Part shown: positions 23,401-51,198 of the stretch, in pieces | Numbering within the stretch: position 1 is the stretch's first letter | Layout of the letters: each line of letters begins with the position of its first letter | Origin: a candidate division WS1 bacterium | Lineage (GTDB): Bacteria > Armatimonadota > Zipacnadia > Zipacnadales > UBA5352 | Assembly: GCA_012522765.1 (NCBI GenBank) | Contig: JAAYJW010000372.1 | Coordinates: 1 to 54,027, forward strand | DNA length: 54,027 nucleotides | Direction: 5' to 3' | Program-made: the position numbers and the translations under genes | Notes under the pieces: model-generated | Told to the model about the DNA's origin: nothing | The model's input: the letters and a program-made list of their open reading frames with translations, nothing else | The model's database searches: none

Positions 23401-23567
23401 GGTGATGCGCCGGGATAGGCGGTCACCACCGCGACCACGGGGAAGGTGATGTCCGGCATCAGGTCGATCGGCAACTGCGTGAGCGCCACCGCCCCAAGCA
23501 CTACGACGCCCAGCACACACATCGCGATAAGAACTGGCCTGTTGATGGAGAATCGAGCTGGGTTCAC
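20457..23567 (-). CDS. RND efflux pump inner-membrane subunit
   Basis: A 1,036-aa AcrB/CusA-superfamily transporter: N-terminal helix, large periplasmic porter loop, helices 2-6, a second loop, helices 7-12. The proton-relay Asp pair is present in GRIVDDSVVVLEN (near residue 400). The family signature TQLPIDLMPDITFPVV opens the first porter domain. It looks like the HAE1/MdtC-like branch rather than CusA, because the TM4 motif is DD rather than the single acidic metal-pump pattern. A Gly-rich patch (GGASAFGGGGGTRSAN) lies near 610. Start and stop overlap neighbours: ATGA with the adaptor gene, 20 bases to the PII-like gene. Confidence 0.93.
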   Translation of the reverse strand: MNPARFSINRPVLIAMCVLGVVVLGAVALTQLPIDLMPDITFPVVAVVTAYPGASPAQVEEFVTKPIEEAAAVVEDLESISSISQQDLSVVIIEFDWGKDMNWAAFDAREKVDPVIEALPGDVHRPLIMKIDPSIIMPMMTLNVTGMADMERLRDIAEDTIKPELEKLPGVAAANIYGGLQREIHVEVNWEKLAARQLAVAQVESALQRENRNIPAGFTTEGRREYTIRVIGEFDVVDEIGDIVVATRGGHPVYLRDVAEIRDTHQEIRSYARLNGDPAIGISLQKESGANTVAVSDAVREELEALGELLPEGVEVSITSEEADFIRASLENLYGVGLEGAILAMVIIFLFLATFRGTIIAALSIPLSALVTFVFMFFSNLTLNIITMGGLVLAIGRIVDDSVVVLENIHRHIESGEPVLDSAINGTEELWAAIAAITVTTMVMFFPLMFVGGMISVLFTPMALVVMLGLLASLIVSVTIVPLLSERMYSRGAHDRLEKTSGLLGPMNRALAAWSRTFDRVAQWYRRAIAWSLNHRAIVIAVAIGVFIASLSLVPLVGMEFFPSVEQDELTIVMETPVGSSVEYTNARAQEVEGLLAGVEERQHYAVTLGQAGGASAFGGGGGTRSANFTLKLHPRDERERTVTEIEDDLREKFAALPGVETRFEAGGGPGGGSDLEVRVLGDDLDMLAALAAEVQQKVEQTDGAIDVQISAEASNPEYHVLIDREEAGRLGLTVSDIGHSIQTQVRGTEQLTKFRAGDTEYDIKVRAREEDRGWVEQVRTTRLTTATGDMVPLSAIATVVPALGPTQISRNERERAITVSANTQGRALSDVVGDVDAQLSEMDWPQGYRYQFAGSEEDRAEAFGGMMTAIVVGVLLIYMILAAQFESLVQPLIIMLAIPLELIGVLGALLLTGTPLGIMAMLGVLMLTGIVVSNSILLVQMVNLMRHRGMALREALIEGGGVRLRPIIMTAMATLLAMVPLALAARTGSEMWKPLGVAAIGGLTTSTFLTLFVIPVAYSLSESAGGWISRRLHRE

Positions 23568-25267
23568 TCCGTGACGCTCCCCTGCACGGGCGTGTCAGCG
23601 ATACGCACCCGAGTGCCATCCGCAAGCTGATCCTGGCCCTCGATGACGATCTGCTCGCCTACGCGCAGGCCGGAAACAACCTCCATTCGCGTCGCTGTCT
23701 GAAGCCCGGTTTCAACTTCGCGCCGAGTGGCCGTGTCGCCCTCGACAACGAAGACGTATTGCATTTCGCCCTCGGTCTGCACGGCATCCCGCGCGATGAT
23801 GAGGGCGTCGTCCAGTCGCTCGGCGACCACTGTTGCGCGGGCGAACATGCCGACCCGCACGCGATCCCCGCCGTTTACCAACCTTACGCGTACCATGCCC
23901 GTGCGGCTGCCGGGCTCCACTGAAGGCGAGATGGCGATGATCTCTCCGACGAAGACTTCGTCGGAGACGCCATCTACCCTGACCTCTGCCGCCTGCCCAA
24001 CCCGGACGCTCTCCATCTCACGCTCGCCCACCCGCGCCTCGACGTAGAGCACATCGCTGCTGACGATGGTGAGCAGCGGAAGTCCCGGTGATGCCCCCTC
24101 GCCCGGCTCGACGTGGCGGGCGGAGACCGTTCCGTTGATGGGTGATGTCACGACATACTTCGAGAGCTGCACAGCCGTCAGGCGCTCGCCCGCCTGCGCC
24201 TGCCTCACGCCCGCCTGGGCAGCAGCGACCTGTCGCCGCTGCACATCCACCTGGCCGCGACCGGCGACAGCAGCGTTGAGTTGTTCGCGGGCCTGCCTGA
24301 CGCCCTCCTCGGCGGCCCGAACGTCCTGCTGGGCCACCTCCATCTGTGTGCGATTCGCCTGCGCCTGCCCCAGCGCCTGTCGTGCCTGCTCGACGTTAAG
24401 CTCCGCCAGCCGAACCTGTTCGGACCGCGCGCCCTCCTCAACGAGGCTGAGCTGGTCCACCGCTTGCTGATGGCGCTGCTGCGCCAGCCGGTACTCCGTC
24501 TGCGTCTGGTCGAACTGCTGCTGGGAGATCACGCCGCCCTCCAGCAGGCGCCGGTAGCGGTTGAAGGTTTGCTCGGCGAGATCGAGGGATGCGCGCGCCT
24601 GCGCCACCTGTGCCTCGGCCTGGCGCCGCTCCTGGTCACGTGCGCCTGCCCGCACCTCCGCGAGCCGCGTCTCGGCGCTGCTCACCGCGGTGCGAGCCTG
24701 CTCGATCGCATTGTTCACCTGCGACTCCACCAGCCGCGCGGCGGCCCGCGCCTGCTCCAGCCGCTCCTGGGCCGCAGTCACACCTACCTCGGCCTGCCGA
24801 ACGGTGCTGGCAGTGGTGTCGCCGGTCAGTTCGAGCATCTCCCGGGCCTGGTTGAGAGCAGCCTGCGCGCTCTGCACGCCCGCCGCCGCCTGATCGCGCT
24901 GAGCGGCAGCGATCTGCATGTCAACGCGCACCAGCGTGCTGCCGCGCCTGACATAGTCGCCTACATCGGCGAGCACAGCCGTGACTTTGCCGGAGGTCTC
25001 GGCGACCACATCAACCTGATCGGTCGTCTGCACGGTGCCGGAGATCTCCAGCGTCTCCTCGATAGAACCGCGGACGGCAGTTGTCACCTGGACCGGGACG
25101 GCAGAGGCCTCCGCGGCCGTAGCGTCTCCCGGCTGATCTCCGCCCTCGCCGCGGCCACAGCCGTTCATTCCCGCAGTCACTGCTGCGACAAGCAATGCGC
25201 CTATGAAGATGATTGTCAACGGGCTACGGCTCCGTGGGCTCCGCCCCGTTGGCGACTGGTGCTTCAT
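23564..25267 (-). CDS. RND adaptor (membrane-fusion protein) with extended coiled coil
   Basis: A 567-aa HlyD/AcrA-type periplasmic adaptor. One N-terminal hydrophobic segment ends in NGC (possible but imperfect lipobox, Cys 37). The barrel-sandwich half-motif GKVTAVLADVGDYVRRGSTL is at about 90-110 and the second half, SPINGTVSARHVEPGEGAS, near 385. Between them lies about 260 residues of Ala/Gln/Arg-rich heptad sequence, much longer than in AcrA (~80), so the coiled-coil hairpin is unusually long or multi-stranded. The C-terminal beta-barrel and membrane-proximal domains look complete. It overlaps both neighbours by 4 bases. Confidence 0.88.
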   Translation of the reverse strand: MKHQSPTGRSPRSRSPLTIIFIGALLVAAVTAGMNGCGRGEGGDQPGDATAAEASAVPVQVTTAVRGSIEETLEISGTVQTTDQVDVVAETSGKVTAVLADVGDYVRRGSTLVRVDMQIAAAQRDQAAAGVQSAQAALNQAREMLELTGDTTASTVRQAEVGVTAAQERLEQARAAARLVESQVNNAIEQARTAVSSAETRLAEVRAGARDQERRQAEAQVAQARASLDLAEQTFNRYRRLLEGGVISQQQFDQTQTEYRLAQQRHQQAVDQLSLVEEGARSEQVRLAELNVEQARQALGQAQANRTQMEVAQQDVRAAEEGVRQAREQLNAAVAGRGQVDVQRRQVAAAQAGVRQAQAGERLTAVQLSKYVVTSPINGTVSARHVEPGEGASPGLPLLTIVSSDVLYVEARVGEREMESVRVGQAAEVRVDGVSDEVFVGEIIAISPSVEPGSRTGMVRVRLVNGGDRVRVGMFARATVVAERLDDALIIARDAVQTEGEMQYVFVVEGDTATRREVETGLQTATRMEVVSGLRVGEQIVIEGQDQLADGTRVRIADTPVQGSVTE

Positions 25268-26676
25268 TGTGTCTCGACCTCCTGCTGCATCTGGTCCGAC
25301 AAACCCATGGCCGTCCGCAGTTGCGTTACCGCAAGCTGCCTGTCATACTCAGCATTCACAAGTGATGCCTCCGCGGCGGCGAGTGCGGTGTCGGCGTCAA
25401 TTACCTCGATGCCCGCCGCCAGGCCCTCACGGTATCTAAGTTGCGCCATTCTCCTCCACTCACGCGCTTCCACCAGGCCCTGTTCTGCGGACAGTATCCG
25501 CTCCTGAGCCTCCTGTACTCGCAGCCACGCCAGCATTACATCCAGCGACACCTGTTCGGTAGCACGCTCAACGGAAAGCTCCGCCGCTGCAACGCGAGCC
25601 TGCGTCGATTCCACTCGCCCATCGCGTGCTCCGCCGTCGAAGATCGGCTTCTGCGCGACGATCCCGACCTGCCACGACCAGTCCGTTCCGCCGAGCCCGC
25701 CGGCGCTCTGTCGCGCATACTGGCCGGTCAGCGCGACCGTCGGCGCCAACTCCTTCTCCGCCAGCCGCAGGCTCAGTCGGGCCATCCGAAGTGACGTCTC
25801 CGCGGAGCGGATCTCGGGTCGGCAGATGCGGGCGGTCTCGATCAATGACGCTACGTCATCATCCGGCATAGGCGGTGAAGGCGCGTCGGCAACGGTGATG
25901 GCAAGCCCTTGCGGCAGTGCGAGGATATCTCTCAGTTGCGCCTTCGCCTGCTCCACCGCGGTCTGCACGACGATAAGCTGTTCGTTCGCCCGCGCCAGTT
26001 CCGTCCGCGCCTGCACCACATCGAAATGCGCGACGACTCCGGCCTCCTCCAACAACTCAGCGTTTCGGACGTGTTCGGCTATCGCGGTGACCTGCGCGGC
26101 CGCCACTCCTGCAAGCTGAACTGACCGCAGCACGCCGTAGCTTATCTGACGCGCCCCCTGCGCCACCTGCAGTTGCGCGGTTTCCACCCCCTGTCGCGCC
26201 GCCTCGATGCCCTCCCGAGCGATATCCTCGCCAATCCCGACGCGTCCGCCGGTGTAGATAGGCAGGTTCGCGGAGATGGTTGCCTGATAGGCCTCCTCCT
26301 GCCCGACCTGCACCTCCATCGGCTCCTCGCCCTCGGCGCCGGGTAGCTGTATCGTGCTCACCGGCCCCATCCGTATGGCTGTCGCCGAGAGATCGACGGA
26401 GAGGTTGTCGGCGGCCTCCGCCTGCCGAAGCTGCCCCTCCGCCTCCGGGATGGATTGTTGCTGGATCAGGATCTGCGTGTTCCGCTCTCGGGCCCAACGG
26501 GCGGCGCTGTCAGGCGTCAGGACCACTGATCCGTCGCTGCCGAGCGTCACGTAGGCCGGGAGTTCCGGACACTCCACCTCCTGCGCGTACGCAGGCGGCA
26601 CAAAGACCACTGCCAACAATCCCGCCGCCCGGACCAGGCGGCGGATCCCCTCACATACCCCGATGTCACGCATCAT
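25264..26676 (-). CDS. TolC-family outer-membrane efflux channel
   Basis: A 470-aa exported protein (signal peptide ending PPAYAQ) with the duplicated OEP architecture. It has long Ala/Gln/Glu-rich helices and conserved AREWRRMAQLRYREGLAAGI in the second half, plus the matching segment in the first (about 200-240). Two strand pairs per repeat make the barrel and helices form the tunnel that receives substrate from the adaptor-RND pair. The C-terminus ends just inside the adaptor start (ATGA). Its own start overlaps the AbrB-like gene by 11 bases, so the whole operon is coupled. Confidence 0.88.
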   Translation of the reverse strand: MMRDIGVCEGIRRLVRAAGLLAVVFVPPAYAQEVECPELPAYVTLGSDGSVVLTPDSAARWARERNTQILIQQQSIPEAEGQLRQAEAADNLSVDLSATAIRMGPVSTIQLPGAEGEEPMEVQVGQEEAYQATISANLPIYTGGRVGIGEDIAREGIEAARQGVETAQLQVAQGARQISYGVLRSVQLAGVAAAQVTAIAEHVRNAELLEEAGVVAHFDVVQARTELARANEQLIVVQTAVEQAKAQLRDILALPQGLAITVADAPSPPMPDDDVASLIETARICRPEIRSAETSLRMARLSLRLAEKELAPTVALTGQYARQSAGGLGGTDWSWQVGIVAQKPIFDGGARDGRVESTQARVAAAELSVERATEQVSLDVMLAWLRVQEAQERILSAEQGLVEAREWRRMAQLRYREGLAAGIEVIDADTALAAAEASLVNAEYDRQLAVTQLRTAMGLSDQMQQEVETQ

Positions 26677-29157: not shown

Positions 29158-29234
29158 GGCGCGCGAGGGCAGATGCCCGAGGCACATCCATGGCCCGCGA
29201 GATCGGGTCGGACCAACGGGAGGTATGTTCTATC

Positions 29235-29864
29235 ATGAGCGGTGAAGCACTCACACCGATCAGGCGCCGGATACTCGATTTCATCGCACGGACGGTGGAG
29301 GAGCAGGGCTACCCTCCGACCGTCCGGGAGATCGGGGCCGAGGTGGGGCTGAAGTCAAGCTCCAGCGTTCATTACCACCTGCGGGTGCTGGAGAAGGGCG
29401 GCTACATCGAGCAGGGTCGCACTGCCGAGGGTTCGCTCACCCGCGCGATCCGTGTGTCGGGACCTGAGCACGGGGCCGGCAGAGCGGCGACGCGCTATGT
29501 GCCACTGATCGGGACTGTAGCGGCAGGTCAGCCGATCCTCGCGACGGAGAACATCGAGCAGCTTGTGCCCACCTCCGCGGATCTTTTCGGTGGGGGCGAG
29601 TTGTTCCTCCTCGAGGTCGCCGGCGACAGCATGATAGAGGCAGGCATTCTCAATGGCGACCTGGTGGTCGTGAGCCAGCAGCCTACAGCCGAAGATGGGG
29701 AGATAGTGGTCGCTCTGCTTGGCGACGAGGCGACGGTCAAGTATCTCCACCGCCACCCGGACCGGATAGAACTGAGGCCCGCCAACGCCGCTCTCGAGCC
29801 GATCTTCGTGGATGACGTGCAGATCATCGGCCGCGTCAGGGGCGTGATCCGAGCGCTGCGCTAG
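29235..29864 (+). CDS. lexA: LexA repressor of the SOS response
   Basis: A 209-aa LexA. The N-terminal winged helix (LTPIRRRILDFIARTVEEQG, then VREIGAEVGLKSSSSVHYHL) binds SOS boxes. The self-cleavage site Ala97-Gly98 lies in GTVAAGQP. The catalytic dyad is Ser132 in AGDSMIEAG and Lys169 in EATVKYLHR, all intact. During DNA damage RecA filaments would trigger cleavage and derepression. The ATG at 29235 follows GGGAGG at a slightly long spacing; a longer frame from 29190 lacks a ribosome site. Its stop codon overlaps that of the convergent phosphatase gene (CTAG). Confidence 0.95.
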   Translation: MSGEALTPIRRRILDFIARTVEEQGYPPTVREIGAEVGLKSSSSVHYHLRVLEKGGYIEQGRTAEGSLTRAIRVSGPEHGAGRAATRYVPLIGTVAAGQPILATENIEQLVPTSADLFGGGELFLLEVAGDSMIEAGILNGDLVVVSQQPTAEDGEIVVALLGDEATVKYLHRHPDRIELRPANAALEPIFVDDVQIIGRVRGVIRALR

Positions 29865-38908: not shown

Positions 38909-40042
38909 ATGGCTGAGATCACGCTGCGCAGCGCGAAAGAGATCATCTTCGGCTCTGGATCCCGGGTGGAAGTCGGCGCTCAGGCGGCGCTGCTGGGCAA
39001 CCACGCGCTGATCGTTTGCGGGCAAGGCTCACTGCAGGCCTCCGGGGCGCTGGATGAACTTCGGGCGCACCTTGAGGAGGCGGGCGTCACCGTCACAGTC
39101 TTCGCTGAAGTCGAGGCGGAGCCATCGCTGGACACGGTGGAGCGTGGGCGGGAGGCCTTCTCCGCGGGCGGTTGCGACATGGTGGTGGCGGCGGGCGGCG
39201 GTAGCGCGCTTGATGTCGGGAAGGCGATTGCCGCCCTCGCGCCGTTGCCTGAGCCGTTGAGCGACTTCTTCGCAGGCGCGATGATTCCCGGGCAGGGAAG
39301 GCCGTGCATCGCCCTGCCGACCACCTCAGGCACCGGGGCGGAGGTGACGCCCAACTCCGTGCTGACCGACACCGCTACCGGCACCAAGGCGAGTATCCGC
39401 GGCCATGCGCTACTGCCGGAGATTGCGCTGGTGGACCCGGAACTGACGCTGTCGCTGCCGCCCGATCAGACGGCCTTCTCCGGTCTCGATGCGCTGACGC
39501 AGGCGATTGAGGCGTATGTCTCGACCGGTGCAAACCCCGTTAGCGCGCCGATGTCGGAGGAGGCTGTGCGGCGCATTGCAGGGAGCCTGCGGCAGGCGGT
39601 GCAGGATGGTCGCAATCTGCAGGCGCGTGAGGACATGGCGCTGGGGAGCCTGCTGGCGGGGCTGGCGCTCGCGAGCGCCCGGCTTGGGCTGGTGCATGGC
39701 CTCGCGCACCCGCTCGGATCGCTCTACCACCTCCCGCACGGGATGGTCTGTGGGGCGCTGTTGCCCTGGGTGATTGAGTTCAACCTGCCTGCTGCTGAGG
39801 GCAAATATGCGCGCCTCGCGCAGATGGCGGGAGTGGGGGAGAGCGCCGAGGACTTGCTGGAGTGGGTGGATGGCCTGGTGGAGGATCTTGGCGCCGGCGT
39901 GGACTTTACGGCGCGTGGACTGAAGCGAGATGACTTCGACCGCATCGTGCCTTACACGGTGGCGTCGGGCTCATCGAAGCACAACCCGCGCCCGGTGGAT
40001 GAGCAGGGCGTGACGGAGCTGCTGGGGCGGCTGATCGAGTGA
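38909..40042 (+). CDS. Iron-type (group III) alcohol dehydrogenase
   Basis: A 377-aa member of the Fe-ADH family. The NAD loop is GGGSALDVGKAIAAL and the metal-side loop PTTSGTGAEVTPNS. Metal ligands are Asp in PDQTAFSGLDALTQ and three His in LVHGLAHPLGSLYHLPHG. It oxidises an alcohol or reduces an aldehyde. GGAGGAG precedes the ATG. As the third gene after an aldolase and a ureohydrolase-like enzyme it may process an aldehyde made by the aldolase. It ends 20 bases from the convergent ceramidase-like gene. Confidence 0.87.
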   Translation: MAEITLRSAKEIIFGSGSRVEVGAQAALLGNHALIVCGQGSLQASGALDELRAHLEEAGVTVTVFAEVEAEPSLDTVERGREAFSAGGCDMVVAAGGGSALDVGKAIAALAPLPEPLSDFFAGAMIPGQGRPCIALPTTSGTGAEVTPNSVLTDTATGTKASIRGHALLPEIALVDPELTLSLPPDQTAFSGLDALTQAIEAYVSTGANPVSAPMSEEAVRRIAGSLRQAVQDGRNLQAREDMALGSLLAGLALASARLGLVHGLAHPLGSLYHLPHGMVCGALLPWVIEFNLPAAEGKYARLAQMAGVGESAEDLLEWVDGLVEDLGAGVDFTARGLKRDDFDRIVPYTVASGSSKHNPRPVDEQGVTELLGRLIE

Positions 40043-41367: not shown

Positions 41368-41639
41368 CGGGGTACCTCCCACTGCCGCGCTAGCGTCGGG
41401 GCAGCATTCCTCTCCGGTGATGAATGGCCTCCTGCTAACGCATTTGGTCGCGCATGCGTGAACAGGCGTGGTAACGTTTGTGGCTCGGTTGAACATAGAC
41501 TGTTCATGCTGCGTCCGGGTACCATGACAACGGAGAGGTGGCCGCGTGGTGGGGGTAGACAAATAGCCGAGCAGACGGTATCTTTCCCCGGGGCGGCGCT
41601 TTGCCGGCCCATCACAATGGAAGCTCGCCGACACGCGGG
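41368..41639 (+). promoter_or_regulatory. Upstream region of the isoprenoid cluster with an operator-like repeat
   Basis: This 272-base gap between divergent genes holds a perfect inverted repeat, TGAACA-tagac-TGTTCA (41490-41506), placed like a regulator site for the rightward cluster. It differs from a LexA box (arms 7 rather than 4 bases apart). I see no convincing -35/-10 pair and no reading frame that looks like a gene. Confidence 0.45.
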
Positions 41640-42485
41640 GTGAAGCCGGTGGTCGGAAGCTGCAGCGTTGTCTTGAGCAGGAGTCTTCATTCGGACGATC
41701 GCGCTCGCGCACTCGAAGACGAGCTGGCTGAGCGACTGGTCGGGCGCGGCGTTGGCGTGCTCATGCTTCCTCACCTCTATCACCTCCGCCACGGTAGCGA
41801 ACTGTGGCAGGGAGTCGCCTCTCTTCCCGGCGAGATCGCCATCTGCGGGTGGCTCAATCCACGGCCTATCCGGTGTCTCGTGGAGCAGCATGTGGGCCGC
41901 GAAGCCACCTTTTGCTTAGACCTCGGAGCGCTCGCTTCAGTTGATGACGCGCTCGAAACGCTGGCGGGCTTTCTGCCGCAGGGCGGCGGTGAGGGCGAAC
42001 TGCGCGAACTCACCGAGCCGACTGCCGAGCGGTGGTATCCGGTGCTGGATTGCTCGCGCTGCACCTTTTGCGGACACTGCCTGCAGTTCTGCCTCTTTGG
42101 CGTCTACGAGCGGGATGAACAGGGGCGAGTGATTCCGGTGAAGCCCGACAACTGCAAGCCCGGGTGCCCGGCCTGCAGCCGCGTTTGCCCGCAGGGCGCG
42201 ATCATCTTTCCGCTCAGTGACGAACCCGCCATCGCCGGTGCGCCGGGCACGCTCATGCAGCCCGATGCCGCCGCCCGGCGGATGTACTACGTCCGCACAG
42301 GCCTCAACTGCCCCGTTTGTGGTGAAGTGAGCGAGGCGGGCGATCTCTCCTCGCGTGATGCTCCGGTCTGCGAGGAGTGCGGACGGCCTCTGGGCCCCGG
42401 CATCGCTGCCGATTCACCCGTTCATGCAGAAATAGATGCGCTGATCGATTCGCTCGACCGCATGGCCGGCGGTGAAGGCGAGTGA
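41640..42485 (+). CDS. Ferredoxin-type 4Fe-4S protein with C-terminal zinc ribbon
   Basis: About 281 residues. An alpha/beta N-terminal domain (about 1-125) of unknown family precedes a two-cluster ferredoxin domain: Cys138, 141, 144, 151 in CSRCTFCGHC and Cys172, 176, 179, 183 in CKPGCPACSRVCPQGA. Then comes a CPVCGE/CEECGR zinc ribbon (about 225-255). It probably supplies electrons to the radical SAM enzyme whose start overlaps its stop (GTGA). The start is uncertain: TTG 41601, GTG 41640 and GTG 41649 are all possible and none has a strong ribosome site. It is the first gene of the cluster. Confidence 0.68.
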   Translation: MKPVVGSCSVVLSRSLHSDDRARALEDELAERLVGRGVGVLMLPHLYHLRHGSELWQGVASLPGEIAICGWLNPRPIRCLVEQHVGREATFCLDLGALASVDDALETLAGFLPQGGGEGELRELTEPTAERWYPVLDCSRCTFCGHCLQFCLFGVYERDEQGRVIPVKPDNCKPGCPACSRVCPQGAIIFPLSDEPAIAGAPGTLMQPDAAARRMYYVRTGLNCPVCGEVSEAGDLSSRDAPVCEECGRPLGPGIAADSPVHAEIDALIDSLDRMAGGEGE

Positions 42486-43975
42486 CTGCTGTATCGGGAA
42501 AGCCGGTCGTGCTTACCGCCGATCGCACCCTCATGGCCGACCACCGCACGCTCTTCGGCGGTATGATTGCGGCCAGCCAGACGACCACGACCCCACGCCC
42601 GCTGATGGACCACCTTCTCGCGCCGCGCTCGCGGCTCTCTGTGGCTCCCCTGGGACTGAGGCGAGTGGAGGCGGCGCTGCTTTGCGACGGCTTCTCCGAC
42701 GGAGACGTGGCGGTGGTGGAACCTGAGCGGCTGGCTGAGGTCATCGGGCCCGAGACGCGGGTCATCGGCGTGAGCGCCGGTGAGGCATGCGGTCTCGGGA
42801 TGAACTCCACCACGATGACCGCCATCGCCGGAGGCGAGATCTATCCGAGGGCGTTGGTGCTGGAGCTTATGCGCGAAATCGGTCGCCTGCGCGAGCGCGC
42901 TCCGGATGCGCGCGTGGTCCTTGGTGGTCCGGGCGCATGGCAACTGGTGGCCAACGATGCGCTGCGAGTGGAGCTTGGTGTGGACCACGTGGTGCACGGG
43001 CCAGTGGAGGGGAATGTCGCGGGACTGATGCACGCCATGGCCGCCGAAGACGACCTGCCGGTGCTGCTGGAGGGGGGTGCGGTTGATGCCGCGTCCATCC
43101 CGGCGATTCGTGGCGCATCAGCGATGGGGGCGGTGGAGCTTTCGCGCGGCTGCGGGCTGGGCTGCACCTATTGCGTGATGGGGCGGGAGGCAATGCGGCA
43201 TCTGCCGGAGGAGACGATTCTCGCCGACGTGAGGACGAACATCGCGGCGGGGATGCGCGGGATTGCTGCCATCAGCGAGGATCTGCTTCGTTACGGCTGC
43301 ACCGGCTCGAAGCCTCATCCCGAGCGGCTGATTGCTCTGCTGCGGCAGATGCGGGAAATCCCCGGGGCCGGGCTCATTCAGACCGACCACGCGAACATCA
43401 TCTCGGTCGCGGCCTACTCTGACGCTGAGCTTGCACAGGTGAGGGAACTGATGGTTGGCGAGACCGGCTGCCGGCATCCGTGGATGAATCTGGGCGTGGA
43501 GTCGGCCTGCGGGCAGTTGTTGGCACAGAGCGGTTCGGCGAAACTTGGGGGCACTGCTCCGGCGGAGTGGGGTGAGTTCGCGGCTGAGCAGCTTCGACGA
43601 CTGGTGCGAGCGGGGTTCATGCCGATGGCGAGCCTGATAATGTGCCTGCCGGGGGAGACGCCCGAGCATGTGCGGGCGACGCTTGAGTGGGTGAAGGGGC
43701 TATCGCGGGAGCCGCTGACGATCTTCCCGGTGCTCTACGCGCCCATTGACGGCAGCTCGCCACCGACGCGCGCCGATCTGACGCGGGAGCACTGGCGGCT
43801 GATCGGGGCTTGCTACGACATCAATTTCCGTGAGGTGCCGCGGATGTTCCGTGACGGTCAGGCTGCGGTCGGCGTGCCGTGGGCGCGAAGGATGGCGCTG
43901 CAGCTGCTCGGCTACGGACAGGTCGGGCTCTGGAGCGCGCTTTTTGCCTGGCACGGATGGCGCGCCGCACAATGA
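42482..43975 (+). CDS. B12-binding-type radical SAM enzyme
   Basis: A 497-aa radical SAM protein. Residues 1 to about 190 form an alpha/beta, B12-binding-like N-terminal domain without an obvious DxHxxG base-off motif; it includes the family stretch VAPLGLRRVEAALLCDGF. The iron-sulfur motif is Cys224, Cys228, Cys231 in RGCGLGCTYCVMG. SAM-binding elements follow, including GVESACGQLL. Relatives modify natural products or cofactors, often by methylation or C-C bond chemistry. GTG overlaps the ferredoxin stop, and its own stop overlaps the cyclase start by 4 bases, so the three are translationally coupled. The substrate is plausibly the cyclase product or substrate. Confidence 0.78.
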   Translation: MTAVSGKPVVLTADRTLMADHRTLFGGMIAASQTTTTPRPLMDHLLAPRSRLSVAPLGLRRVEAALLCDGFSDGDVAVVEPERLAEVIGPETRVIGVSAGEACGLGMNSTTMTAIAGGEIYPRALVLELMREIGRLRERAPDARVVLGGPGAWQLVANDALRVELGVDHVVHGPVEGNVAGLMHAMAAEDDLPVLLEGGAVDAASIPAIRGASAMGAVELSRGCGLGCTYCVMGREAMRHLPEETILADVRTNIAAGMRGIAAISEDLLRYGCTGSKPHPERLIALLRQMREIPGAGLIQTDHANIISVAAYSDAELAQVRELMVGETGCRHPWMNLGVESACGQLLAQSGSAKLGGTAPAEWGEFAAEQLRRLVRAGFMPMASLIMCLPGETPEHVRATLEWVKGLSREPLTIFPVLYAPIDGSSPPTRADLTREHWRLIGACYDINFREVPRMFRDGQAAVGVPWARRMALQLLGYGQVGLWSALFAWHGWRAAQ

Positions 43976-45726
43976 ATATTGACCGCGTCCGCCTTGACCA
44001 CGCGATTGATGCGGCCCGGGCGGAGTTGCTCGGGAGGCGCAGCGCCGGGCCGTGGTGGGAGGGGCATCTGTCATCCTCCGCGGTCTCGACGGCCACGGCA
44101 GTGATCGCCCTGCAGTCAGCGGGTTTCGACGAGGATGGCTCGCTCGTTGAGCGGGCAACGGAATGGCTGGTCGGCACGCAGAATGCCGATGGCGGCTGGG
44201 GTGATACTCCTAACAGCCAGAGCAACATCGCGGCAACGGCTCTGACCTGTGCGGCCCTGACGATGGCGCCGGGAGATCATCTCACGGCGCTTGGAGGCGC
44301 CGGTGGATGGATCGAGAGCGAGGCGCCAGGCGGTGATGTGGCGACTGCAATCCGCCGGCGCTACGGAGACGACCGCACCTTCCAGGCGCCGATCCTTGCG
44401 GCATGTGCGCTGGCGGGGCTGGTGGAGTGGGAGGAAGTGCCGCCGCTGCCCTTCGAGCTATCGGTGCTGCCCCGCGGGCTTCATGCGATGCTTCGGCTGC
44501 AGGTGGTCAGCTACGCGCTTCCCGCGCTGATTGCGGTGGGCGCGCTGATACACACGCGGCGCAGGGGCAATCCGGCCGCGCGCATACTGCGCTCGGTGTC
44601 GCTGGGGCGAGCGCTGTCGCTCCTGCCGGACCTGCAACCGAGCAGCGGCGGCTTCCTCGAAGCCGCGCCGCTGACGGCATTCGTGGCGATGAGTCTAGTG
44701 CCGCTGCTCGGCCGCGACCATGTGGTGGTCGAGGGCTGCCTGGAGTTTCTGCGGGAGGGCGTGCGTGGGGATGGCAGTTGGCCCATCGACAGCAACCTTT
44801 CCGTCTGGGTCACTACCAACGCGCTGATGGCGTTGCGCCAGTCGGGAGGCATCCCCGGGGACATCGCCGAGGGGGCGCATGAGTGGCTGCTCAAGCAGCA
44901 GCTTGCGCACACGCATCCCTTCACCGGCGCGGGGCCGGGAGGATGGCCGTGGACGCACCTGCCGGGAGGCGTCCCGGACGCGGACGACACCGCGGGCGCG
45001 GTGATAGAGATGGCCGGCACGGGGGAGGGGGCGGCGGCCAGGGCGGGCGTGGTGTGGCTGAGCGGGCTGCAGAACACCGACGCCGGATGGCCGACCTTCT
45101 GCCAGGGATGGGGGCGCCTGCCGTTTGACAGCAGTTCGCCGGATATCACCGCTCATGCGTTGCGCGCGATAGACGCGACGCTGAAGATGGATGATGATGG
45201 TGGCGGCTATCTGGCACGCCTGCTCGCGCTCAACATGGGCGCCACGATGAAGCGCGGTTTCGGCTATCTGGCCGCGACACAACATGAAGATGGCTCCTGG
45301 GCGCCGCTGTGGTTTGGCAATCAGAGGGTTCGTGGTGAGGCGAACCCGGTCCTTGGGACCGCCCGGGTGCTGGCAGCGTGGGCGGACTGCGGGCACGGGG
45401 ACGATCCTCATGCGCGGCAGGGGCTTGACTATCTGCTGGGCGCGCAGAATGGCGGCGGGGGATGGGGCGGCGGCAAGGGCATCACCAGCAGCGTCGAAGA
45501 GACGGCACTGGCGGTGAGCGCGCTTTCTCGCTTTGCCGGCACTGAGCAGGTTGATGAGGCCATTTCGGATGGTGTGGACTACCTGCTTGCACACGTTGAA
45601 GATGGAAGCTGGGTTGAGCCGTCTCCCATCGGCCTTTACTTTGCGAGCCTGTGGTATACTGAAGATCTCTACCCGATCACATGGACGCTGGAGGCGCTTG
45701 GAAGAGTGCGGAAGCTCGTCGGTTGA
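43972..45726 (+). CDS. Squalene-hopene-cyclase-like class II terpene cyclase
   Basis: A 584-aa alpha-barrel (two-toroid) protein with QW-type repeats, for example QNADGGWGDT (near 63) and QHEDGSWAPLWFG (near 440), and GAQNGGGGWGGG near the C-terminus. The catalytic class II motif DxDD is intact as DADDT (residues 336-340, in PDADDTAGAVIE), so it should protonate a polyene or epoxide to start cyclisation. It is slightly shorter than bacterial squalene-hopene cyclases (~630). The ATG at 43972 overlaps the radical SAM stop (ATGA). With no squalene synthase genes in the window, the substrate could be squalene or another polyprenyl chain made by the downstream synthase. Confidence 0.82.
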   Translation: MNIDRVRLDHAIDAARAELLGRRSAGPWWEGHLSSSAVSTATAVIALQSAGFDEDGSLVERATEWLVGTQNADGGWGDTPNSQSNIAATALTCAALTMAPGDHLTALGGAGGWIESEAPGGDVATAIRRRYGDDRTFQAPILAACALAGLVEWEEVPPLPFELSVLPRGLHAMLRLQVVSYALPALIAVGALIHTRRRGNPAARILRSVSLGRALSLLPDLQPSSGGFLEAAPLTAFVAMSLVPLLGRDHVVVEGCLEFLREGVRGDGSWPIDSNLSVWVTTNALMALRQSGGIPGDIAEGAHEWLLKQQLAHTHPFTGAGPGGWPWTHLPGGVPDADDTAGAVIEMAGTGEGAAARAGVVWLSGLQNTDAGWPTFCQGWGRLPFDSSSPDITAHALRAIDATLKMDDDGGGYLARLLALNMGATMKRGFGYLAATQHEDGSWAPLWFGNQRVRGEANPVLGTARVLAAWADCGHGDDPHARQGLDYLLGAQNGGGGWGGGKGITSSVEETALAVSALSRFAGTEQVDEAISDGVDYLLAHVEDGSWVEPSPIGLYFASLWYTEDLYPITWTLEALGRVRKLVG

Positions 45727-45812
45727 CCGGATCTGTTTGCTGCAACGCCCTTCAAGCCCGGATGCGGGGTGGCAGGAGAGGGCGCTTATATTGCCCGTGG
45801 AGGACGATGCCA

Positions 45813-47234
45813 ATGTCAGCAGTAACTGCTCGCACGATCATCGCGACAATAGCCCTGATCGCGCTGGTCGGCGCCGGTGTGTGCGGCGCCGATGATTACG
45901 TGGGCTGGCGAACTGACGGGACCGGGGAGTATCCGGACGCCACGCCGGTTACCACGTGGTCGGCGGAGATGAACGTCATCTGGAAGACGCCGATGTCCGC
46001 AAAGAGCAACTCGCTGCCGACGATCGTCGGCAATCGCCTCTTCGTCTGTTCCGAGCCTGCTACGCTGCTGTGCGTTGACAAGACGACCGGCGCGATCCTC
46101 TGGGAGGCGTCAAACAACCCGGCGGACATCGCGCCTGCCGAGGGGGTCGCCGATCTCGAGGCCAAGACGGCTGAGTTTAACCGTCTGCGGGGCGAGATCG
46201 GCAAGGCGTCTCGCGAACTACGTAATGTGCGCAAGCAGATTCAGGACGCGCCGACTGCCGAGTTGAAGGCGCGCCATGACGAACTGCAGGCGCAGATTGC
46301 GGCGCTCAACGAGCAGATCAAGCCGCTTCGCGAGACGTGGTATGTGCGCCCGGTTACTCATGATTACAACGGCTACTCCTCTCCGACGCCGATCAGCGAC
46401 GGGCAGCACGTCTGGGCGGTCTTCGGCAATGGCATCGCCGCCTGCTACGACATGGACGGCAATCGCATCTGGGCGCGTTTCATCGAGAGGCCGCCAAACG
46501 ACTGGGGAACGTCGAACACACCGGTGCTCGTGGATGGCAAGCTGATCCTGCACCTCGGACAGATGCGGGCACTTGAACCGCTCACCGGCGTCGAGGTCTG
46601 GGCCCAGCCCAAGGCAGGCTGGAACTGGGGTACTTCGTGGGTGCATGAGATTGAGGGCGTGCCGCTGATCATCACCTCCAACGGTGATACCGTCCGTGCC
46701 GACGACGGTACGATCATGGCCAGCGGGCTGGGCAGGCTCCGCTGGGGCTCGGGGCCGATGGTGGACGATGGTGTGCTTTACTACATTGACAACCAGGACG
46801 GCGAGTACATCAGCCGCGCCTGGCAGTTGCCGACGACGCTCGCCGAGCCATTCCAGCCGCAAATGCTCTGGCAGATCACGCCGAAGAAAGATCGTTACTA
46901 CGCCTCCCCGGTCATACTTGACGGGCTAATCTACGCGATCACCCAGGCGGGTGTGCTCTCGTGCATTGATGCCGCCACGGGGGAGATCGTCTACGAGCAG
47001 AACCTGCAGACGGGTAAGCCGGTCTTCTTTGCGAGTATCGTCCTCGCGGGCGACCTGCTCATGGCTTCCCAGGAGAGCGGAACTACGGTCATCTTCCAGC
47101 CCGGGCGCAGCTACGTTGAGGTGGCGCGCAACGACCTCGGCGAGATGGTCCGCAGTACACCGGTGTTTGATGGCGACCTGATGTACGTGCGCGGCTATGA
47201 GCATCTGTTCTGCATAGGTAACGCTGCCGGATAG
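45813..47234 (+). CDS. Exported PQQ-type beta-propeller with coiled-coil insertion
   Basis: The 473-aa protein has a signal peptide (1 to about 25, ending GVCGA) and a PQQ/quinoprotein-like beta-propeller with repeated LLCVDKTTGAILWE-type blades, for example at 85-98 and LSCIDAATGEIVYE near 385. Residues ~108-172 form a charged heptad helix pair inserted in a blade loop (LEAKTAEFNRLRGEIGKASR and onward). I see no dehydrogenase Ca/PQQ ligand cluster that would mark an alcohol dehydrogenase. It is probably a periplasmic scaffold. It starts 86 bases after the cyclase (GGAGG 9 bases before ATG) and lies 15 bases before the DUF116 fusion, apparently in the same unit. Confidence 0.72.
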   Translation: MSAVTARTIIATIALIALVGAGVCGADDYVGWRTDGTGEYPDATPVTTWSAEMNVIWKTPMSAKSNSLPTIVGNRLFVCSEPATLLCVDKTTGAILWEASNNPADIAPAEGVADLEAKTAEFNRLRGEIGKASRELRNVRKQIQDAPTAELKARHDELQAQIAALNEQIKPLRETWYVRPVTHDYNGYSSPTPISDGQHVWAVFGNGIAACYDMDGNRIWARFIERPPNDWGTSNTPVLVDGKLILHLGQMRALEPLTGVEVWAQPKAGWNWGTSWVHEIEGVPLIITSNGDTVRADDGTIMASGLGRLRWGSGPMVDDGVLYYIDNQDGEYISRAWQLPTTLAEPFQPQMLWQITPKKDRYYASPVILDGLIYAITQAGVLSCIDAATGEIVYEQNLQTGKPVFFASIVLAGDLLMASQESGTTVIFQPGRSYVEVARNDLGEMVRSTPVFDGDLMYVRGYEHLFCIGNAAG

Positions 47235-47249
47235 CGGAGGACATGATCG

Positions 47250-48989
47250 ATGTCCCACGGCCAACTCGTGCCTGAGGCGCACGCACCAGGTGAGATCAAG
47301 CAGGTGCCGCAGGAGGCGGCGGTCCGGGAGAAGATCCGGACCGCTGCCGCCGACATCATGCATGGCAGACCCCGTGCAAGTGCCCCCGGACGAGACCTAC
47401 TCGCCGAGCTTGGCGCCGAGTTGCTGCAGCGCCTCGAGCTGCCGCCGACTTGCCTCGGCTTCACGATGGTGGCGCTGAGCAACGCATTCTGGCGTGAGCA
47501 ATACGAGGCGGTGCCGCTGCATCGGCGCTTGCTGCTGCTGCCCAAGTGCCTGCGGGACCCCGTCGCCTGCAGGGGGACGTTCGACTCGGTCGGCCTCAAC
47601 TGCGCCGGCTGCGGTGCGTGCGTAATCGGCGACCTCGTGGCGAAGGCACAGACGCTCGGATATTCGGTGATCGTGGCCGAGGGCACCTCGTCGGTCATCA
47701 TGAAGGTGCTCGAAGGAGAGGCCGATGCCATCCTCGGTGTCGCCTGCCTTGATTCGCTCGATGAGTCCTTCGAGCCGATCGCTGACCTCGGAGTGCCGAA
47801 TCAGGCGATCCCCCTCCTGAGGGACGGCTGCGAACGTACGGAGACAGAGCCCGCGCTGATTGCGCAGTTGATGACCGTCATGCAATCGTCAGCGATCCAG
47901 ACCACGCGCACGTCGGTTCCTCTGCTACGGGCCACCCGTGAGATATTCGCCGCCTCGTCTCTTGCCACGCTGCTGGGACTGCACGTCTCGGACGGTGCGT
48001 TTGCCTCAGGGGCGGCCGATGAGCCGCTTCTGCAGACCGAGGCGCTGGGTCTTGACTGGCTGGTGTGTGGCGGCAAGCGCCTGCGGCCGTTCGTGACCGT
48101 CGCGGCTTACGCACTCGGCCGCCATGGTGTGAGGTCGCTGGAGCCGCGCGCGAATGCAGGCGAGATGCTCGATGAGCCGGTGCAGGCGCTGGCGGTGGCG
48201 ATCGAGGCGCTGCACAAGGCGTCGCTGATCCATGACGACATCGCTGATGGTGACGAGTTCCGCTACGGCCGCCGCACACTGCACGCAAGCCACGGCACCG
48301 GGATCGCAATCAACGTGGGCGACTGGCTGGTGGGGCTTGGATATCGGCTTGCCGGGGACCAGGCGGAGGCTTTCGGAGGCGATCGGGCGGCCGAGATCGC
48401 GACGCGACTGGCGAAGGCACAGCTTGCGCTCTGCAAGGGACAGGGCGCGGAGCTTGCGTGGATCGGCAGCGAGAGCAGGGCGCTGCGGGCAGCCGACGCG
48501 CTTGCGATCGGCGCGCTGAAGACCGCTCCGGCGTTCGAAGTTGCGCTGCATGCGGGTCTCATCGCGTCTGGAGCGCACTACGAGCGTGACGTAGTCGCGC
48601 GCTTCGCCACCTACCTCGGTGAGGCCTATCAGGTGCTCAACGATCTTGAGGACTGGCGCGACGATGTCGGCAACAAGGTGTCGGTGGGGCTTGATGTGCT
48701 CAGCGGGCGGCCCACGATGCTGCGCGCCTTCGCCACTGAGGCGGGTGGGTGGGAGCAACTGGCTCGTTTGCGTGAGGAGTCCGATCCGCAGGCCATCGTG
48801 GCGTCTGTGCGGCGACTGTACGATGAGACCGGGGCGTTTGAGAAGACGAGGGCGCTGCTGGGGGGGCTGCGTAACCGGTGCCTGACGCTTGCCGAGGGTA
48901 TGAGGCCGGAGGCACTTGGCGAGTTACTGCGCTTCCTGACGCGGACAGTCCTGCGCGAGCGAGGCGAACCGCGGACGCGGGAGGTCTGA
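47250..48989 (+). CDS. DUF116 domain fused to isoprenyl diphosphate synthase
   Basis: A 579-aa two-domain protein. Residues ~40-215 are a Cys-rich DUF116-type domain (Cys100, 107, 118, 121, 124, 166, 194; the 118-124 set reads NCAGCGAC and may hold metal or Fe-S). Residues ~255-560 are a trans-isoprenyl diphosphate synthase with GGKRLRP (274-280) and the first Asp-rich motif DDIAD (329-333). The second motif reads NDLED (464-468), where the first Asp is replaced by Asn. It should condense IPP with an allylic diphosphate to make a polyprenyl chain; chain length cannot be read safely. GGAGG precedes the ATG. The toroid gene follows after 2 bases. Confidence 0.85.
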   Translation: MSHGQLVPEAHAPGEIKQVPQEAAVREKIRTAAADIMHGRPRASAPGRDLLAELGAELLQRLELPPTCLGFTMVALSNAFWREQYEAVPLHRRLLLLPKCLRDPVACRGTFDSVGLNCAGCGACVIGDLVAKAQTLGYSVIVAEGTSSVIMKVLEGEADAILGVACLDSLDESFEPIADLGVPNQAIPLLRDGCERTETEPALIAQLMTVMQSSAIQTTRTSVPLLRATREIFAASSLATLLGLHVSDGAFASGAADEPLLQTEALGLDWLVCGGKRLRPFVTVAAYALGRHGVRSLEPRANAGEMLDEPVQALAVAIEALHKASLIHDDIADGDEFRYGRRTLHASHGTGIAINVGDWLVGLGYRLAGDQAEAFGGDRAAEIATRLAKAQLALCKGQGAELAWIGSESRALRAADALAIGALKTAPAFEVALHAGLIASGAHYERDVVARFATYLGEAYQVLNDLEDWRDDVGNKVSVGLDVLSGRPTMLRAFATEAGGWEQLARLREESDPQAIVASVRRLYDETGAFEKTRALLGGLRNRCLTLAEGMRPEALGELLRFLTRTVLRERGEPRTREV

Positions 48990-48991
48990 GC

Positions 48992-49903
48992 GTGGGCTAC
49001 CTCGACGTGCTGGACGGCATCCTTCGCCCGGGGGTGCACCTGCTTGGAGAGGGATTCGCGGCGCTCGAATGTGGCTGGATTGAGCGCCAGGAGTTGGCCG
49101 GTGGCGGTTTCCGCGGGCGCAGCGGCGGCGATGATCTCTACTACACGGACTTTGCATTGCGCGCAGTGGACCTCATTGGGCCGCAGTCACCTCTGTTCGC
49201 GACAACGGCAGAGCGGATGCGTCACAATCTGCCCGCGCCACTCGACGTTGTTTCTGCGTTCAGCATCCTCAGTTGCGCCCGCACGCTCTCCCGCCACGGC
49301 CACGCCATCAGCGCGGATCAGCGTCACATTCGCAAGCTGCTTGCGCGGCAGACGCTGCCGGAGGGCGGTTTCGGTGTCAACAAGTCCAGCGAGACCAGCG
49401 CCTATCAGACCTTCCTCGGCACGCTCTGCCGCCAACTGCTCGGAGATGAGGCCCCGGTGGCTGCCGACTGTGACGCAATTCGCAGGCTGCAGCGTGAAAG
49501 CGGCGGATTCGCAGAACGCGAGGCTGGCGATGTGGCGCAGACGAATGCCACCGCTGCTGCCGCGGCGGTACTGCTGATGGGCTCCGCGCTGCAATCTGAC
49601 GACGCCGAGGGGGTTACGCGTTTCGTCGCCTCTATGCAGGCAGAGGACGGTGGTCTGCGCGCACATGCCGAGGCACGCGGAGGTGACCTTCTGTCGAGCT
49701 TCACCGCGTTGCTGACGCTGTGTCTGCTGGGGGCGCCGGCGGCGCTGGAGCTCCCGGCGCTGGGTCGGTTTGTGAAGGGCGCAGTCAGGCCCCGTGGAGG
49801 CTTCGGGGCCTCACAGCACGATCCCGGAGCGGACGTCGAGTACACCTACTACGGGATCGCCACTCTCGGTCTGCTGCGCTCGCTGGTGGAGGCGGACTGC
49901 TGA
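48992..49903 (+). CDS. Prenyltransferase-beta/terpene-cyclase-like alpha-toroid protein
   Basis: A 303-aa protein of repeated helical hairpins with GG-rich turns: LAGGGFRGRSGGDDLYYTDF near 25-45, LPEGGFGVNKSSETSAY and RPRGGFGASQHDPGADVEYT near the end. This matches the beta subunit of protein prenyltransferases and the single toroid of terpene cyclases. Zinc-ligand positions are not conserved: the Asp-x-Cys site reads DDLYY and the final His of the H-T motif is Tyr in VEYTYYG. So it is unlikely to be a classic zinc prenyltransferase, and no DxDD is present. GTG at 48992 follows GGGAGG by 7 bases. Its stop overlaps the glycosyltransferase start by one base. Confidence 0.72.
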   Translation: MGYLDVLDGILRPGVHLLGEGFAALECGWIERQELAGGGFRGRSGGDDLYYTDFALRAVDLIGPQSPLFATTAERMRHNLPAPLDVVSAFSILSCARTLSRHGHAISADQRHIRKLLARQTLPEGGFGVNKSSETSAYQTFLGTLCRQLLGDEAPVAADCDAIRRLQRESGGFAEREAGDVAQTNATAAAAAVLLMGSALQSDDAEGVTRFVASMQAEDGGLRAHAEARGGDLLSSFTALLTLCLLGAPAALELPALGRFVKGAVRPRGGFGASQHDPGADVEYTYYGIATLGLLRSLVEADC

Positions 49904-51198
49904 TGCGCATCGTGCACCTCGCCGCCGGAGCGGGCAGTATGTATTGCGGCGGATGCGTTCGCGATGCCGCGATGGCGCGCGCCCTCATCGCACGGGGGCA
50001 TGACGTGCAGATCGTCCCGCTCTACACGCCGCTGCGAATTGATGCGGATCTTCCGGTGACGGAGGTGCATCTCGGCGCGCTCAACGCGTACCTCCAGCAA
50101 CTGTCCGGCATCTTCGCGAGAGTCCCGCGACCTATCGCGCGTGTGCTCGACAATGAGCGGCTGTTGCGCTTCGTTTCGCGTTTCGCGGTCAGCACGAAGC
50201 CCTCGCAGCTTGGGCCGATGACGGTCTCGGTGATCGCAGGTAGCGATGGCAGGCAGCGCGCGGAACTGAGTCGCCTCGTGGACTTCCTCGCGTGCGAGGC
50301 GCGGCCGGATGCGGTGACGATCACCAACTCGATGCTCTCCGGCGTGGCGCCGGAGATGAAGCGGCGGCTGCGTGTGCCGGTGCTCTGCGAGGTGAAGGGC
50401 GAGGATGGCTTCATTGACGCCATCCCCGAGCCGCATCGATCTGAGGCGCTAACGCTGCTGAGGCGTAATGCAGCCTCGGTGGATCGCTTCATCTCGCCCA
50501 CCGCAGCCTACGCCGATCACATGGCCCAGTGGCTGGAGGTGGAGCGTGAACGGATCGCGGTGGTGAGCACCATCATTGACGCGGAGGCATTGCATCGTGC
50601 CGGGCCACGCCTTCGCCGGCCGTTCACCGTCGGCTATCTCTCCGTGATCACACCGCGCAAGGGTCTGCACGTGCTGGTTGATGCACTGGCGATCCTGGTT
50701 CGTGAGGGCCGCGATGTGAGGTTGCGCGCTGCGGGGCAGGTGCTGGATCGGCGCTACTGGCGGGAGATTCGCGCCACCATCCGCCGGGAGCGCCTGAGTG
50801 ATCGCGTGGAATACCTGGGGGAAGTCAGCGTGGCGGATAAAGTGACGCTTTTGCACTCGTTGAGCGCATTCTGCCAGCCGTCAATCAAGCCGGAGGTGCT
50901 TGGGACGGCCGCGCTGGAGGCACAGGCGGCGGGCGTGCCGGTAGTCGCGCCTGATGAAGGTGTCTTCCCGGGGATGCTCGGGCTCACCGGTGGTGGGGTG
51001 ATGTTCGAGTCGGGGGATGTTGACGCCCTCGCAGAGCGGCTGGCTGAGCTGATGGATGATCCGGTACGCGCGGATGCGATGGGGGAGAGTGGGGCGGCGC
51101 AGGTTGCGCGGCAGTTTTCAGCGGAGTTGGCTTCTGAGACCATGGAAGCGATACTGACGGCACTGGAGGCGCAGGGAGATGGCGAAGAAGCTGTGTAA
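49903..51198 (+). CDS. GT4-family glycosyltransferase
   Basis: A 431-aa GT-B glycosyltransferase. The N-terminal Rossmann domain opens with HLAAGAGSMYCGGCVRDAAM. The C-terminal nucleotide-sugar domain has GYLSVITPRKGLHVLVDALA and the GT4 donor signature PSIKPEVLGTAALEAQAAGV with its two Glu. The acceptor is unknown; context suggests a terpenoid or polyprenyl lipid made by the preceding genes. The ATG at 49903 overlaps the toroid stop (TGATG). The reading frame extending back to 49720 is a shadow. Confidence 0.87.
   Translation: MRIVHLAAGAGSMYCGGCVRDAAMARALIARGHDVQIVPLYTPLRIDADLPVTEVHLGALNAYLQQLSGIFARVPRPIARVLDNERLLRFVSRFAVSTKPSQLGPMTVSVIAGSDGRQRAELSRLVDFLACEARPDAVTITNSMLSGVAPEMKRRLRVPVLCEVKGEDGFIDAIPEPHRSEALTLLRRNAASVDRFISPTAAYADHMAQWLEVERERIAVVSTIIDAEALHRAGPRLRRPFTVGYLSVITPRKGLHVLVDALAILVREGRDVRLRAAGQVLDRRYWREIRATIRRERLSDRVEYLGEVSVADKVTLLHSLSAFCQPSIKPEVLGTAALEAQAAGVPVVAPDEGVFPGMLGLTGGGVMFESGDVDALAERLAELMDDPVRADAMGESGAAQVARQFSAELASETMEAILTALEAQGDGEEAV

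Follow-up and report, generated by a model that had tools for sequence, protein, structure and literature searches.

The proteins of the DUF116 family (COG1852/arCOG02078) are likely to adopt a flavodoxin-like fold, carry a CxxCxxC motif and may serve electron transfer (Makarova et al. 2015, PMC5898192). The stand-alone members of methanogens (COG1852, MMP0162) have N-terminal membrane helices and are encoded beside sulfite/nitrite reductase or ATPase genes; the same paper gives one sentence to a fusion, found in some bacteria, of DUF116 to a polyprenyl synthetase, Psta_0175 of Pirellula staleyi (PMC5898192). Two further groups of enzymes are relevant here: the all-trans isoprenyl diphosphate synthases, and the class II terpene cyclases represented by the squalene-hopene cyclase (SHC) 1gsz. 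To our knowledge DUF116 has no known function.

Here we describe a locus from a candidate division WS1 bacterium (Armatimonadota), located within the 54,027 nucleotides of DNA that were analysed (the window). One gene of this locus encodes a protein which, judged by the published description, has the same domain architecture as Psta_0175; planctomycetes are also among its hosts. With the stand-alone methanogen proteins it has in common PF01976 and the CxxCxxC core, but not the membrane helices or the genomic neighborhood. With GGPP and octaprenyl diphosphate synthases it shares the fold, GGKRxRP, the first DDxxD, GQ and KT; it differs from all-trans synthases in the N-terminal DUF116 domain, in NDLxDW for DDxxD, in RYG for RRG after the first motif and in GRPT for GKxT. 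The cyclase encoded nearby is, like 1gsz, a two-toroid class II protein with DxDD and paired His; however, it is distant from SHC and shorter, and many of its hosts lack a squalene synthase. The fusion architecture itself is thus already published; the cluster context was not found described, a search of the openly accessible literature for polyprenyl synthetase, squalene-hopene cyclase and planctomycetes together having found no description of such a cluster, and the published sentence on the fusion comes without an analysis of cyclase cluster, motif or squalene synthase. With a probability of about 0.6, we read the fusion as a prenyl-chain-supplying, redox-linked enzyme of a conserved cyclic-terpenoid-lipid cluster that operates without canonical squalene synthase.

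A single two-domain protein

The fusion gene and its two domains are positioned in the window as follows.

47250..48989, + strand: DUF116–isoprenyl diphosphate synthase fusion (ORF of 579 aa, ATG to TGA, no internal stop)
47445..47849, + strand: DUF116 domain (aa 66-200, by Pfam; Cys100, 107, 118, 121, 124, 166 and 194 invariant)
48066..48779, + strand: isoprenyl diphosphate synthase domain (aa 273-510, by Pfam and fold match; DDIAD at aa 329-333, NDLEDW at aa 464-469)

A GGAGG-type site lies 5' of the ATG. The preliminary description had seen one uninterrupted frame joining DUF116 to a synthase, and had proposed a domain search of the two halves: both Pfam domains do lie within this frame, and both matches are far above their cut-offs (PF01976, E 8.3e-29, 100.5 bits against a gathering score of 25; polyprenyl_synt PF00348, E 7.6e-33, 114 bits against 27). 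The motifs GGKRLRP, DDIAD and NDLED, read in the same description, are all present, and the structure model of the whole fusion is confident (pLDDT 91.7, pTM 0.90).

About 24 of 291 Armatimonadota genomes encode a full-length homologue, with 38-66% identity; DUF116 of any kind is found in 24 of the 291, as one copy each and always within the fusion. Of 246 evenly drawn Planctomycetota genomes, 55 contained the fusion. A scan of contigs gave at least 572 confirmed relatives, the best 80 of which belong to Armatimonadota ('Candidatus Zipacnadia'), Planctomycetota, Verrucomicrobiota, Methylacidiphilum and Sumerlaeota; a search of plasmids found no fusion. In the second of two alignment sets (locus L021 was left out of the alignments) all 79 proteins are fused at full length. 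The same architecture in several phyla, and its presence in 79 of 79 proteins, rules out a sequencing frame error that merged two genes.

Divergence is correlated among the DUF116 half, the synthase half and the SHC-like cyclase (r 0.85, 0.78 and 0.60, with 0.85 for the distances of the two halves of the fusion), which is consistent with joint inheritance. The fusion is conserved across phyla and its halves co-evolve, so that a functional tie of DUF116 to the synthesis of prenyl chains is well supported.

The synthase half

The best fold matches of the synthase half are GGPP and polyprenyl synthases (E 1.5e-12). The first motif is kept, with D329, D330 and D333 invariant; GQG, KT and an Ala-Ser pair at -5/-4 ahead of the first motif are likewise invariant in the 79 sequences. 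Ala-Ser at these positions is a feature of medium- and long-chain prenyl synthases and so counts against FPP as the only product: it argues, by analogy, for something longer. The predicted chain length comes from these two residues, and the product that the synthase half supplies to the cyclase would most likely be a prenyl diphosphate of at least C20.

The second motif is neither DDxxD nor DxxxD: it reads NDLEDW, with the other two Asp retained. The preliminary description had treated the Asn as a peculiarity of this protein. That view is refuted by the alignments, two overlapping sets in which NDLxDW is the rule of the subfamily (Asn in 78 of 79 and 20 of 23 sequences; the exceptions are DDLTDW, DDLHDF, DDLHDL and DDLEEW). 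The unfused Armatimonadota synthases that were read have DDxxD or DDLLG at this place. An Asn-first second motif, two retained Asp and some members with DD lead us to file the synthase half, on its motifs, as a divergent branch of the all-trans isoprenyl diphosphate synthase superfamily, not as a canonical member. The same description had suggested altered metal use or chain length. However, the Asn-first motif NDxxD is a working metal motif in UbiA prenyltransferases, enzymes with a metal site similar to the one in FPP synthase (PMC7839719), and the substitution alone is therefore no argument for either change. NDLxDW is a subfamily signature and, by the same analogy, probably still serves as metal ligand.

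The DUF116 half

Cys118, 121 and 124, singled out in the preliminary description, prove to be part of a larger set of seven cysteines, all of them unchanged throughout the 79 full-length sequences; the fusion thus has the conserved cysteines, CxxCxxC included, that mark the DUF116 family. The model of this half (pLDDT 91.6) has alternating strands and helices, an arrangement as expected, at the level of the model, for a flavodoxin-like fold. A profile search found no credible solved relative of DUF116, and a fold search with the model found no significant one (best E 7.5e-3, TM about 0.3), the weak matches to cobalamin-domain and flavodoxin-like structures all lying below significance.

On the basis of its cysteines, DUF116 is most likely a dedicated Fe-S redox module of the fusion, with Fe-S binding putative. 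It had been proposed that the domain works on or senses prenyl-chain synthesis. Conservation and the correlation between the halves speak for the functional tie; nothing supports sensing. The published suggestion (PMC5898192), together with the Fe-S and radical-SAM partners encoded in the cluster, points to electron transfer instead.

A conserved gene cluster with a cyclase

The fusion belongs to an operon, the other genes of which are listed in order.

41601..42485 (start uncertain), + strand: ferredoxin-like protein with 4Fe-4S-type Cys motifs (weak PF13187/PorD), first operon gene
42482..43975, + strand: radical SAM protein with B12-type N-terminal region (PF04055; closest TIGR04013, 75 bits, below cut-off)
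43972..45726, + strand: SHC-like class II terpene cyclase (PF13243/PF13249; DADDTA at aa 338-343)
45681 or 45807 to 47234 (start uncertain), + strand: PQQ-type beta-propeller protein (PF13360), accessory
48992..49903, + strand: single alpha-alpha toroid protein (Prenyltrans PF00432), without DxDD
49903..51198, + strand: GT4 glycosyltransferase (PF00534), its ATG overlapping the toroid stop

The genes are tightly packed: the radical SAM GTG overlaps the ferredoxin-gene stop by 4 bp, the cyclase ATG overlaps the radical SAM stop, and the toroid gene begins 2 bp after the fusion stop. The order ferredoxin, B12/radical-SAM-type protein, SHC-like cyclase, [PQQ propeller], fusion, toroid protein, GT4 is recurrent. 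The ferredoxin-like gene is conserved in position and cysteines (29 sequences), as are the CxxxCxxC cysteines 224, 228 and 231 of the radical SAM protein (31 sequences) and, in several loci, the downstream GT4 gene. Four of these genes (ferredoxin, radical SAM, toroid and GT4) are not adjacent to the fusion/cyclase pair in many planctomycetes and are thus not obligatory neighbors. Among solved structures the toroid protein is closest to geranylgeranyl transferase beta subunits, but its conserved columns (38 sequences) contain neither Cys nor His; it may bind lipid as a partner of the cyclase.

An iron-type alcohol dehydrogenase is encoded upstream of the operon (38909-40042), and one is also found upstream of the ferredoxin gene in several planctomycete loci (L110, L092, L098, L122 and L123); it may be a pathway member or a chance neighbor. 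Elsewhere in the window, judged by translation only, three adjoining ORFs (20457-26676, - strand) resemble an RND efflux pump, a membrane-fusion protein and a TolC-like channel, and an ORF at 29190-29864 (+ strand) resembles the LexA repressor.

The pairing of fusion and cyclase is nearly obligate. The SHC-like cyclase is present in 26 of the 291 Armatimonadota genomes, and 23 of the 24 with the fusion have both (Fisher p 8e-30, a value overstated by the non-independence of related genomes). Among loci with enough flank, the SHC-like gene is upstream of the fusion on the same strand in 17 of 19 from Armatimonadota and 51 of 63 from other groups; a same-strand match to the PQQ propeller occurs in 12 of these 19 loci and in only 1 of the 63. 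Two Armatimonadota genomes, G273 (contig C96) and G205 (contig C20), have the cyclase and no DUF116 match; in G273 the cyclase lies at the very edge of its contig, and its partner may therefore be unassembled. The DADDTA of the cyclase aligns with DVDDTA of 1gsz and its His397 (residues counted from base 43966) with His451; DxDD is in every listed motif variant of 81 cyclase sequences. Its score against the hopene-cyclase equivalog TIGR01507 is 88.7 bits, far short of the cut-off of 431.

Cyclase substrate and alternative roles

The cyclase raises the question of its substrate. The window genome (97.7% complete) contains no protein of PF00494, a family which we take to comprise squalene synthase, HpnC/HpnD and phytoene synthase. 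PF00494 is also missing from 15 of the 23 other fusion-bearing Armatimonadota, several of them 95-99% complete, so that 16 of 24, the majority, are without any squalene or phytoene synthase. In most of the Armatimonadota hosts the cyclase thus probably uses something other than canonical squalene, and the synthase encoded nearby is the obvious candidate to provide it. In other groups 6 of 25 fusion-bearing genomes lack PF00494; the other 19 carry squalene or phytoene synthases, and the cyclase could use squalene in those.

The fusion might alternatively serve quinone synthesis, as the medium- or long-chain prenyl diphosphate synthase of its host; DUF116 would then be an appendage, either passive or regulatory. 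Besides a separate IspA-like synthase (L132) it is the sole synthase of the window genome, which also encodes a UbiA-type prenyltransferase, and the Ala-Ser pair resembles that of long-chain synthases. However, most hosts outside the window's family have a third, separate synthase, and the fusion tracks an SHC-like cyclase that is dispensable for quinone synthesis; a quinone role is therefore unlikely.

A second alternative takes the lack of squalene synthase further: DUF116 and the synthase half would together replace that enzyme, by a reductive head-to-head reaction or reductive dephosphorylation that yields a squalene-like hydrocarbon. Two observations speak for this: the squalene-cyclase-like partner is encoded in genomes that have no SQS/PSY protein, and a redox-type domain carries seven invariant cysteines. 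On the other hand, no mechanistic motif ties DUF116 to IspH or squalene synthase, the domain has no fold match, class II cyclases also accept prenyl diphosphates directly, and squalene/phytoene synthases coexist with the pair in most of the other-phylum genomes tested. We regard this as a long shot. The same holds for its fullest form, in which an Fe-S redox domain and a synthase would produce a squalene-like or otherwise reduced prenyl chain and so give Armatimonadota and Planctomycetota a route, independent of squalene synthase, to hopanoid-like lipids that are polycyclic and glycosylated.

That the synthase half has little catalytic power and acts instead as a scaffold or in substrate binding is suggested by a near-invariant N464 in place of the first Asp of the second motif, a metal ligand in farnesyl diphosphate synthases, but is distinctly improbable given that the remaining catalytic positions examined are retained, that the same family includes DDLTDW, DDLHDF and DDLEEW members and that UbiA enzymes are active with NDxxD (PMC7839719).

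Proposed pathway and significance

Under the preferred reading, a redox-linked supplier of prenyl chains to the cyclase, the two-part enzyme probably helps to make a cyclic membrane lipid. The IspA-like synthase would supply FPP, which the synthase half, with Mg2+ on DDxxD and NDxxD(W), would elongate to an all-trans prenyl diphosphate of at least C20. With its seven cysteines the DUF116 half would bind one or two Fe-S clusters; the electrons that it passes on, probably drawn from the neighboring ferredoxin, would go either to a step that reduces the prenyl chain or to the radical-SAM protein. The SHC-like cyclase would then close the rings, and the GT4 enzyme would add a sugar.

DUF116 gains a concrete candidate role from the fixed fusion, from a cyclase partner that is nearly fixed and from hosts that lack squalene synthase. 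Should polycyclic lipids be the product of the pathway, common soil and water bacteria would have a source of hopanoid-like biomarkers not recorded so far, and this would caution against taking SHC-like genes as proof of squalene-derived hopanoids.
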